64,000 bases of DNA from Verrucomicrobiota bacterium (GTDB lineage: Bacteria > Verrucomicrobiota > Verrucomicrobiia > Opitutales > UBA953): positions 1 to 64,000 of the forward strand of contig VHDL01000006.1 in NCBI GenBank assembly GCA_016871415.1, written 5' to 3'. The notes under the pieces are model-generated. The model was not told where the DNA came from, made no database searches, and saw nothing but the letters and a program-made list of their open reading frames with translations. The first letter of the stretch is position 1. Each line of letters opens with the position of its first letter. The position numbers and the translations under genes are program-made. Shown here in pieces: positions 34,484 to 50,216 of this stretch.

Positions 34484-34948
34484 ATGTCCCACGAGCACGG
34501 TCATGAGGACGGGTGCTGCGGCGACGCTGCGCGGCGCCTCGACGCGGCGGTGACCCGGATGAGGGAGAAGTCCCTGCGGGTGACCGCGCCCCGGATGAGC
34601 ATCCTGCGGGTGCTGTCGGAGTCCGCCAATCCGCTGAGCGCCGAGGACGTACACCGCCTGGCCGGCCACGGCGCGTTCGACCTGGTCACCGCCTACCGCA
34701 GCCTCGGGGCACTCGAGGAGGTCGGCGTGGTGCAGCGGCACCGCATAGAGCGCGGCAAGACCCTCTACGCCCTCGCCTCGGGCCACCATCACCACCACGT
34801 CGTCTGCCGCCGATGCGGACGCGTCGAACGCCTGCCCGACTGCGACATCTCGCGCATCGAGGGCCCGGCGTGGGCCAAGGGATACGCCGACCTCACCCAT
34901 GTGATGGAAATTTACGGCGTCTGCCCGAACTGCGCGGCAAATGGCTGA
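34484..34948 (+). CDS. Fur-family metalloregulator
   Basis: 154 residues. Winged-helix DNA-binding half (LRVTAPRMSILRVLSE to FDLVTAYRSLGALEEVG) and metal-binding dimerisation half with GHHHHHVVCRRCGRVERL and a terminal CPNC. Both CxxC pairs of the structural zinc site are intact. The N-terminus MSHEHGHEDGCCGD adds extra His/Cys. It could be Fur, Zur or PerR; the His-rich loop and weak regulatory-site pattern favour Zur/Fur over PerR but do not decide it. Overlaps the next gene by 8 nt. Divergent from metX. Confidence 0.88.
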   Translation: MSHEHGHEDGCCGDAARRLDAAVTRMREKSLRVTAPRMSILRVLSESANPLSAEDVHRLAGHGAFDLVTAYRSLGALEEVGVVQRHRIERGKTLYALASGHHHHHVVCRRCGRVERLPDCDISRIEGPAWAKGYADLTHVMEIYGVCPNCAANG

Positions 34949-47592: not shown

Positions 47593-48494
47593 CGCACCCT
47601 CCCATTGCGATTACCTGCGGCGATCCCGCCGGCATCGGACCTGAGATCACGGCCGCTTGGCTGACCTCCAACCCGGCGCTGGCGGCCGAGACCATGGCGA
47701 TCGGCTGCGAGGCCTGGACTTCGGCGCTCAGGTCGCCCTCGCTGGCGGTCGGAGACCGGAATCACCGCCCGATGCCAGGCAGACCCGACGTGGTCGGACA
47801 GTGCGTCGCGCTGGCCGCGATGGAGGAGGCGGCGGAGGGCGTAAAAATCGGGCGCTATCGCGCGGTCGTGACCGGGCCAATCAGCAAGGAGGGCCTTGCG
47901 GGCATTGGATTTGCGCACCCTGGACAGACCGAATTCTTCGCGGCCAGGTGGGGCGGCACGCCCGTCATGGCGTTCGCCGGCGGCAGGATGACGGTCGGGC
48001 TCGTCACCTGGCACATCCCGCTCAGCGCCGCCCCCACGGCCGTGACGCAGGAAGCGATCCGTCGCACGGTCCTCGCCCTGCATCGGCTCAAGGTCCGGCT
48101 CGGCGTCCCACGCCCCAGGATCGCCGTCTGCGGCGTCAATCCGCACGCCGGGGAGAAAGGCCTGATGGGCGGCGAGGACATCGCCGTGGTGCGGCCGGCG
48201 GTGGAATCATTGCGCGCCGAAGGCGTCGATGCCGAAGGGCCCCTGCCGGGAGACACCGTCTTCCACCGGCATCTGATGGGCGATTACGACGCCGTCGCGG
48301 CCATGTACCACGACCAGGGGCTAGGGCCGCTCAAGTCGGTCGACTTCGCGACTACAGCGAACCTCTCCCTCGGCCTGCCTTACGTACGCACGAGCCCCGA
48401 CCACGGCACGGCCTACGCGCTCGCCGGCACGGGGCGCGCCGACCTCGGAAGCTTCGACTCGGCGGTGCGCCTGGCGCTGCGGCTGACTTCGTGA
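47589..48494 (+). CDS. pdxA: 4-hydroxythreonine-4-phosphate dehydrogenase
   Basis: 301 residues. Oxidises 4-phosphohydroxy-threonine in the DXP-dependent vitamin B6 pathway. Typical start IAITCGDPAGIGPEI; metal-binding His in GFAHPGQTEFF, CGVNPHAGE and AMYHDQGLGPLK; TSPDHGTAYALAGTG near the end. Slightly shorter than the E. coli enzyme (329 residues), lacking some residues after the first 50. Overlaps lpxA and the BtuF-like gene by 4 nt each. Confidence 0.94.
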   Translation: MTHPPIAITCGDPAGIGPEITAAWLTSNPALAAETMAIGCEAWTSALRSPSLAVGDRNHRPMPGRPDVVGQCVALAAMEEAAEGVKIGRYRAVVTGPISKEGLAGIGFAHPGQTEFFAARWGGTPVMAFAGGRMTVGLVTWHIPLSAAPTAVTQEAIRRTVLALHRLKVRLGVPRPRIAVCGVNPHAGEKGLMGGEDIAVVRPAVESLRAEGVDAEGPLPGDTVFHRHLMGDYDAVAAMYHDQGLGPLKSVDFATTANLSLGLPYVRTSPDHGTAYALAGTGRADLGSFDSAVRLALRLTS

Positions 48495-49279
48495 GGATCG
48501 TCCCTCTGCTAGTCTTGGCACTCGCCTCCTGGTCGCAGGCGGCTACCCGCATCGCGTCATTCAGCCCCGGCGCCACACGCACGCTGACCGACCTCGGGGC
48601 CGGCGAGGAGATCGTGGCCGCGACCCGCTGGTGTCCGCTACCCGCCGAGCATCCTGCGCCAAGGCATTGCGACGCGTTCGCCCCGGACATGGAGAAGCTA
48701 CGGTCGACGCGGCCGGAACTCGTCATCCTGCCTCGGTTGGCTAATCCGCTCTGGGCGGAACGTTGCCGCAAGGCGGGATACCGTACGCTCGTGCTTGAGC
48801 CGGAGTCATCCGCCTCCGTGGAGGCTGACATCATTGCCATAGGCGAGGCCGTCGGGAGGAAGCCGGCCGCCAAGGAGCTGGCGGCGAAGCTCGGCCCGAC
48901 GCATCTCGACGCGGGCCCGGGACGTACGGTGACCGTCATCTGGAGCGGCGTCACCGCCGGGGAGAATTCTTATCTCGCTGGACCGCTGAAGACCTTGGGC
49001 TTAAGGCTCGTGCCCGCCGGAGGCTCATGGAACCGGCTCGACTGGGAAACCCTGGCCGCAGCCAACCCAGGGCTGATCATCTGGGTGGAGGAATCGCCCC
49101 GGGACGGGCCTGTCATCAAATCGGAGACCAAACGGGCGCAGCTGAGCCAAGTCTCTGCCGTGAAAGACGTTATGGCCGTGCGAGAAGGAGCGGTCTACGT
49201 GGCGCCGAGCGGATCCGAATGGCTGCCAGGCTCGGGGCTGGTCAGTCTGAGGGCCAGACTGAGGGATTTGCCCCGCTGA
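48491..49279 (+). CDS. Periplasmic BtuF/FecB-type substrate-binding protein
   Basis: 262 residues, GTG start overlapping the pdxA stop (GTGA). Signal peptide RIVPLLVLALASWSQAATR. Periplasmic-binding-protein fold type III: RIASFSPGATRTLTDLGAGE, AATRWCPLPAEH, RPELVILPRLANP, and VKDVMAVREGAVYVAPSG near the end. Such proteins bind cobalamin or ferric chelates and deliver them to an ABC importer, but no permease or ATPase gene is adjacent. The mature protein contains three Cys, which is more than usual. Confidence 0.85.
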   Translation: MRIVPLLVLALASWSQAATRIASFSPGATRTLTDLGAGEEIVAATRWCPLPAEHPAPRHCDAFAPDMEKLRSTRPELVILPRLANPLWAERCRKAGYRTLVLEPESSASVEADIIAIGEAVGRKPAAKELAAKLGPTHLDAGPGRTVTVIWSGVTAGENSYLAGPLKTLGLRLVPAGGSWNRLDWETLAAANPGLIIWVEESPRDGPVIKSETKRAQLSQVSAVKDVMAVREGAVYVAPSGSEWLPGSGLVSLRARLRDLPR

Positions 49280-49296
49280 GCAGCAGGGCGGTCGGA

Positions 49297-49325
49297 TTGA
49301 CAGCGGGGCGCTCGCTTGCAGATTG
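49297..49325 (+). promoter_or_regulatory. Putative promoter of the CPC-repeat gene
   Basis: Perfect -35 TTGACA at 49297-49302; the -10 is poor (CAGATT at spacing 16, or AGATTG at 17). The ATG at 49345 follows about 20 nt later, without clear Shine-Dalgarno. Confidence 0.35.
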
Positions 49326-49344
49326 AAACTCCAATCCACAAACC

Positions 49345-49599
49345 ATGAACACCAAGATCCTTAAGCTACTGTCCACCTACGCCTGCGTGCTGGCGCTCTC
49401 CTCCGGAGTCCTCTTCGCCGATGACGAAAAGAAGAAGGAGTGCCCCTGCGAGAAAGAGAAGCCCAAGGCCCTCGTGGTTGCCGATGACGAAAAGAAGAAG
49501 GAGTGCCCCTGCGAGAAAGAGAAGCCCAAGGCCCTCGTGGTTGCCGATGACGAAAAGAAGAAGGAGTGCCCCTGCGAAAAGGAAAAGCCGAAGGCCTGA
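49345..49599 (+). CDS. Secreted three-repeat CPC peptide
   Basis: 84 residues: signal peptide (ILKLLSTYACVLALSSGVLFA) then three copies of a 21-residue unit starting ADDEKKKECPCEKEKPKA, the first two ending LVV. Only Asp, Glu, Lys, Pro, Cys, Ala and small hydrophobics occur. Each unit has a CPC dithiol flanked by charged residues, so metal binding or a redox/structural role is possible; no family known to me. The first two DNA units (49417-49479, 49480-49542) are identical over 63 nt, the third has synonymous changes near its end. Own promoter and strong terminator, so it is probably well expressed. Confidence 0.82.
   Translation: MNTKILKLLSTYACVLALSSGVLFADDEKKKECPCEKEKPKALVVADDEKKKECPCEKEKPKALVVADDEKKKECPCEKEKPKA
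49417..49599 (+). repeat. 63-bp in-frame tandem repeat, 2.9 copies
   Basis: Unit starts at 49417, 49480 and 49543. Copies 1 and 2 are identical; copy 3 differs only near its end (GAAAAGGAAAAGCCG for GAGAAAGAGAAGCCC) and stops before the LVV codons. Suggests recent expansion by slippage or unequal exchange. Confidence 0.95.
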
Positions 49600-49622
49600 A
49601 CGCTTTACACCGCATCTGACCC

Positions 49623-49654
49623 CGGAGGCGGACATTGTCCGCCTCCGCTGTTTT
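49623..49654. terminator. Strong terminator between convergent genes
   Basis: 11-bp perfect stem (CGGAGGCGGAC / GTCCGCCTCCG), loop ATT, followed on the plus strand by CTGTTTT. May serve both the CPC-repeat gene and the convergent gmhB-like gene. Confidence 0.85.
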
Positions 49655-49658
49655 CAAG

Positions 49659-50216
49659 TCAAAGCGACCAAGCGAGACCGAGCTCCTGGCGCACGAAGGC
49701 CGGGAAATCGGGATGGATGGGGACTCCAGAGGTGCGGGCGAAGGCCTCATCCTCAGGGCCGAACTCCTTGCCGCTCCTCACTGCGCAGGCGCGGATGCCC
49801 GCGTTGAGTCCGGCCTCCCAGTCCGTGCGACGGTCACCGACCATCCAGCTGCGCGACAAGTCGAGCCCATGCGCGGCCCCCATCTCCAAGATGAACCTGG
49901 GGCTGGGCTTGCGGTAGGCCGAAGGCTCGTCCGGCCGCTCCGGGGCCGCCATCACGGAACGGAAACCAGGGGCCGGCAGGTCGAGCAGGTCGAGCATGCG
50001 CGCATGACAGGCATGGTACTGCTCCCAGGTGAAGAAGCCGCGGCCGATCCCGCTCTGGTTCGTCAGGATGAAGAGAGCGTAGCCCTCATCCATCGCCGCC
50101 AACAGAGACTCCCTGACCCCCGGGATGAGCTCGATCTGCTCCACCCGGCAGGTGTGGTGGTGGTCTCGGATGAGATTGCCGTCCCGGTCCAGAAATAAGG
50201 CTGGTTGGCCTGCCAT
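49659..50216 (-). CDS. gmhB: D,D-heptose 1,7-bisphosphate phosphatase-like HAD protein without zinc loop
   Basis: 185 residues from ATG 50216 (MAGQPALFLDRDGNLI). HAD motifs: LFLDRDGNL with the nucleophile and acid Asp, ILTNQSGIGRGFF, RKPSPRFI, and MVGDRRTDWEAGLNAG. This matches GmhB, which makes heptose-1-phosphate for LPS core. The zinc-binding Cys/His loop (C-x-H ... C-x-CRKP in E. coli) is reduced to APERPDEPSAYRKP with no Cys or His. The upstream extension to 50258 lacks family counterpart. A histidinol-phosphatase or related substrate is an alternative. Confidence 0.82.
   Translation of the reverse strand: MAGQPALFLDRDGNLIRDHHHTCRVEQIELIPGVRESLLAAMDEGYALFILTNQSGIGRGFFTWEQYHACHARMLDLLDLPAPGFRSVMAAPERPDEPSAYRKPSPRFILEMGAAHGLDLSRSWMVGDRRTDWEAGLNAGIRACAVRSGKEFGPEDEAFARTSGVPIHPDFPAFVRQELGLAWSL

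Follow-up and report, generated by a model that had tools for sequence, protein, structure and literature searches.

A paired-cysteine repeat peptide, probably exported, at a conserved locus in one Opitutales genus

A single genus of lake bacteria encodes, almost universally and always at the same place, a fast-changing thiol peptide that is probably exported and escapes the family libraries that were searched. The gene described here lies in the window, the whole 64,000-nt stretch of contig VHDL01000006.1 that was analysed. The host genus is probably the freshwater Opitutales genus called UBA953 in GTDB, a GTDB-style name used in one paper for both a family and a genus within that order (PMC12697132). 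The peptide may be a metallothionein-like chelator of soft metals that works outside the cytoplasm, a tentative reading whose chances fall a little short of even. If it does bind metal, it would represent a metallothionein-like strategy outside the cytoplasm, built from an expandable repeat, with a bearing on trace-metal or oxidant handling by small-genome freshwater bacteria.

Tandem Repeats Finder places the repeat at 49417-49596 (period 63, 2.9 copies, 96% matches), with a score of 332 that is the highest among its six rows for the window. The original prediction had described three 21-residue units after a signal peptide, two of them identical at the DNA level over 63 nt. The three units are there and units 1 and 2 agree at 63 of 63 nt, but the unit lengths are 21, 21 and 18 amino acids; the chain beyond A25 has 59 amino acids (Table 1). 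Cysteine makes up about 10% of the mature chain, which holds no histidine. The repeat is of low complexity and other frames are open through it, those of the reverse strand included, as might be found for a chance open reading frame in repetitive DNA. That reading deserves next to no credence, because homologues across the genus share the signal peptide, the place and the ending, and because dN/dS falls below 0.31 in 19 of 20 close pairs. The original prediction, open to refutation by a lack of homologues in relatives, survives that check.

Table 1. Positions of the peptide gene, its parts and associated features (window coordinates unless a locus is named)
Feature	Position	Strand	Basis or remark
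Exported paired-cysteine repeat peptide gene (putative export), 84 aa	49345..49599	+	ATG to TGA; homologues at same locus across genus
TTGACA, -35-like element	49297..49302	+	48 nt before ATG; TTGAC recurs in relatives
Signal peptide, residues 1-25, putative cleavage after A25	49345..49419	+	By eye; conserved in relatives; model helix 3-22
Repeat unit 1 (ADDEKKKECPCEKEKPKALVV)	49417..49479	+	Tandem Repeats Finder, sequence comparison
Repeat unit 2, DNA identical to unit 1	49480..49542	+	Tandem Repeats Finder, sequence comparison
Repeat unit 3, 54 nt, four differences from unit 1, all synonymous	49543..49596	+	
Terminator-like hairpin, 11-bp stem	49623..49647	+	Terminator pattern; by-eye hairpins at same place in relatives
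Class III substrate-binding protein (Peripla_BP_2)	48491..49279	+	PF01497, E 3.7e-13; adjoins peptide gene in relatives
Sister-genus Cys-rich protein	L102:2316-2795		Divergent; syntenic with peptide gene

The signal peptide was called by inspection and by its conservation in relatives: it has an MNTKILK start, a hydrophobic core and an LFA|DD end. AlphaFold2, run on a 12-row alignment, gives a single helix at residues 3-22 with a mean pLDDT of 52.6 and low confidence beyond residue 22. The helix agrees with the predicted signal peptide, and on these features the peptide is probably exported. The chain that follows is predicted to be disordered; beyond this, the model is of little use.

Of 57 genomes searched with the protein, the present one among them, 34 had matches at E <= 1, and reading the loci of same-genus genomes with a weak match or none revealed divergent versions in the corresponding position. 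The gene, whole or in part, occupies this locus in 44 of the 45 same-genus genomes examined (G000-G036, G057, G139, G152, G164, G202, G210, G267 and G271); it is complete in 41, cut by a contig end in G018 and G019, and interrupted by Ns in G210. Neither the neighbouring binding protein nor plsX was found in the 45th genome, G008, so the locus is not assembled there. The relatives are mostly metagenome assemblies. Runs of N lie within the repeat gene at L071 and L103, perhaps where short reads left the repeats unresolved. The most divergent same-genus versions (L070:2817-3047 and L078:2041-2274) are short, with 9 to 10 mature cysteines, and do not end in PKA. When 273 genomes of the order were searched with a profile, it picked up 18 of the 20 that belong to the genus and none of the 253 others, 15 of which are of the same family; the profile missed the divergent same-genus G139 and G164, so its blank outside the genus is not proof of absence. 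Weak matches outside the genus in G038 (E 0.10) and G054 (E 0.11), and a second one within this genome (G000:C10, E 0.45), were taken as chance.

The gene order is pdxA, binding protein, peptide, gmhB (on the opposite strand), rpmF and plsX. Among 32 loci (L001 and L003-L033), gmhB and rpmF are present in all, and pdxA, the binding protein and plsX in 31 each; L033 starts inside the peptide gene, hence its missing pdxA and binding protein, and L011 ends before plsX. A scan of named genomes yielded 33 loci, all with the binding protein and gmhB, of which 27 match the peptide at E <= 1e-10 and the remaining six carry divergent versions. Thirty-one of the titles read Opitutae, Opitutia, Opitutales, Opitutus or Verrucomicrobia/-ota. 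The locus also occurs under the titles Polynucleobacter meluiroseus (L045) and Akkermansia muciniphila (L046), which are probably mislabelled assemblies. The binding protein was matched in three of six genomes of the sister genus g23. One of these (G301, locus L102) has the same gene order and, in the place of the peptide, a 159-aa Cys-rich protein with a signal-peptide-like start. It holds ACKCTADTCKCEKKGKCKCPEASCTCDKCKAI, with nine cysteines in 32 residues and four CXC motifs, followed by HCGKCDKKD twice and then by CPTC and CPNC; Pfam and NCBIfam searches gave no match to it above their cut-offs, and PDB none. Its homology to the peptide is judged by synteny and style, not by alignment. A similar Cys-rich protein of G298 (L103) is interrupted by Ns, and in G118 the contig ends within the binding-protein gene. 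Six loci from further genera of this family (g22, g24 and g25) were examined as well: pdxA, the binding protein and gmhB all went unmatched in the stretch before rpmF, where a filter found no Cys-rich, Lys-rich open reading frame.

What is conserved among these proteins is the signal peptide, close cysteine pairing, a near-zero net charge, the upstream TTGAC and the following hairpin, while the motif around the cysteines (CPC, CPNC, CPKKC, CGKC) and the number of units vary. In the conservation set of 42 complete proteins (41 from the genus and that of L102), 305 of the 315 mature cysteines have another cysteine no more than four residues away, against a mean of 170 after shuffling. The commonest pairs are CPC (68), CPNC (31), CC (10), CPKKC (9) and CGKC (8). 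Net charge averages +0.4 (sd 1.9, range -5 to +5), and the counts of K+R and D+E are correlated at 0.89. In the 20 author-chosen pairs dN/dS runs from 0.006 to 0.513, the highest value coming from a pair with a dS of 0.04, and the gene is under purifying selection in most of them. The units were also compared in five author-chosen groups of relatives (19 genomes). Units in the same position are more alike between species (mean similarity 0.844 to 0.965) than are the different units of a single gene (0.757 to 0.916), so the layout with three units predates those species. A recent expansion or homogenisation, as originally predicted, is visible only in the first two units of the present genome, and general concerted evolution of the units is not supported in the five groups.

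A promoter-like box of the gene's own had also been proposed, and its upstream half is well kept: in all 42 complete members the best -35 match is TTGAC, at -38 to -51 (TTGACA in 26, TTGACT in 15 and TTGACC in one). Against this, a consensus scan of 48900-50000 found no sigma-70 promoter on the + strand, and there is no recognisable -10 near the window gene, where the best matches reach 3/6. Four of the 42 members have a Shine-Dalgarno-like word before the ATG, and a short leader is possible for the transcript. The proposed 11-bp terminator was recovered by a pattern search, and hairpins followed by T were seen by eye after the gene in 32 examined loci of relatives, with different stem sequences in some. 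Rfam reported one tRNA and no riboswitch in the window.

The peptide had been thought to look undescribed, and the libraries searched agree. The window protein had no match above cut-off in Pfam or NCBIfam, nor had the relatives searched with it (four in Pfam, three of these in NCBIfam); PDB sequences gave no match to the peptide, and searches of open-licence papers turned up no description of an exported metallothionein or other Cys-rich peptide from this bacterial group. Hits below the Pfam and NCBIfam cut-offs (DUF1922, CFAP90, LsoB_effector, zinc-ribbon models and others) were dismissed. Like the bacterial metallothioneins (SmtA/BmtA, MymT), the peptide and the L102 protein are small Cys-rich chains with closely spaced cysteines (CXC, CXXC), and CXC motifs occur in the sister-genus member. 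The peptide differs in its export signal, its repeat architecture and its lower cysteine density, metallothioneins being richer in cysteine than the mature window chain. As no curated Pfam or NCBIfam model matches and metal binding is only predicted, it is not classed as a metallothionein. SmbP of Nitrosomonas europaea is comparable as a small periplasmic repeat protein that binds metal, but its heptad repeats are rich in histidine, whereas the window peptide is Cys-based. Metal-free metallothioneins are described as disordered, folding when metal is bound (PMC7558416), and the peptide is also predicted to be disordered. Bufferins and oxazolins, described as Sec-exported, copper-binding Cys peptides modified by MNIO enzymes (PMC12452194), resemble it as small cysteine-containing precursors with a signal peptide, called by eye in this case. 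A peptide of that kind needs an MNIO enzyme and is ruled out here: PF05114 was found in none of 38 genomes, nor beside the peptide gene, while the control was positive in two of 14. Csp1 is described as an exported thiol-based metal store (PMC7558416), comparable to the role proposed here, but it is a Cys-lined four-helix bundle with a Tat signal, and the only helix predicted in the peptide is that of residues 3-22.

The tentative reading as a metal chelator supposes that the repeated dithiols (CPC in this genome) of an exported, disordered peptide would hold soft metal ions such as Cu(I), Zn, Cd or Hg, within the periplasm or extracellularly. Charge-balanced Lys/Glu/Asp/Pro spacers would keep the chain soluble, and the peptide would do the work of a metallothionein beyond the cytoplasm, in metal buffering or detoxification. 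From the sequences we infer its export, location, reduced state and metal binding as well as this purpose. Close cysteine pairs whose spacing varies favour, in our judgement, a chelator over a redox catalyst, and disorder, export and the CXC-rich sister-genus protein point the same way. Purifying selection and a neighbour with the fold of iron, haem and B12 binding proteins are consistent with it. On the other side stand the lack of a matching metallothionein model, the modest cysteine content, the chance that exported thiols are oxidised, the synteny-and-style basis of the L102 homology, the little that the neighbour's position says, and a promoter region in which no metal-linked element was identified. 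The main rival is a periplasmic or extracellular thiol-disulfide buffer, whose dithiols, cycling between oxidised and reduced states with DsbD as the route of reduction, would remove oxidants or undergo exchange with other exported proteins. The pairing of nearly all cysteines would suit such a buffer, as would a search for DsbD_TM and Thioredoxin_4 (DsbA-like): DsbD_TM was matched in 34 of the 38 genomes, among them 22 of the 25 from the genus, and Thioredoxin_4 in a single one of the 38, an outgroup. Both patterns also hold in outgroups without the peptide and so are not specific. As the spacing of the pairs is not kept and the sister-genus protein, rich in CXC, looks metallothionein-like, metal is preferred, and the buffer is rather doubtful.

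An envelope spacer or coat, in which a charge-balanced disordered chain would be cross-linked by disulfides, draws on the balanced charge and the predicted disorder; it is unlikely, given that no anchor, lipobox or wall-binding part was seen and that the near-strict pairing exceeds what a simple cross-linker needs. The linkers themselves invite another proposal, that the chain is a polyprotein cut between units into several short dithiol peptides, active as signals, metallophores or thiols. Among linkers caught by the pattern, which takes only the PKA...[DE][DE] type, 51 of 55 have A, S or G just ahead of the acidic start and 49 of 52 have V, I or L at position -3, much as in a signal-peptidase site and where the real signal peptide ends. 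PKA closes most units and also the whole protein in 37 of 42 cases. Signal peptidase, however, normally needs a membrane-near hydrophobic helix, and the linkers may simply have been inherited from a duplicated signal-peptide end, which leaves this proposal quite unlikely.

The binding protein upstream, whose GTG start at 48491 was taken from homologues (searches used 48497-49276), is alone in matching PF01497 in 35 of the 37 genus genomes searched; in G022 the match comes in two pieces of a single frame, and G008 and G019 have none. Its model (mean pLDDT 88.4) is similar to binding proteins for iron, haem and B12, and neither the model nor similarity distinguishes among cobalamin, haem and iron as ligand. 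A FecCD permease and ATPase are encoded on another contig (L097:8144-9755), and similarity searches in G000, G001 and G005 found no binding protein beside them, so the Peripla_BP_2 protein is probably their partner. It could be imagined that a ribosomally made metallophore without modifying enzymes is secreted, that dithiol peptides trimmed at the linkers capture soft metal outside the cell, and that the metal-peptide would pass to this adjacent binding protein for import through the unlinked permease and ATPase, but this is very improbable. The peptide is tied to the binding protein only by position, and since the latter also adjoins pdxA and lpxA, position alone proves little. A Fur-family regulator with a His/Cys-rich start lies at 34484-34948 of the window (NCBIfam Fur, E 3e-21, below the cut-off). 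In the binding protein, TRWCPL, H52 and C90 are invariant over 29 sequences (alignment A3) and form a possible ligand site.
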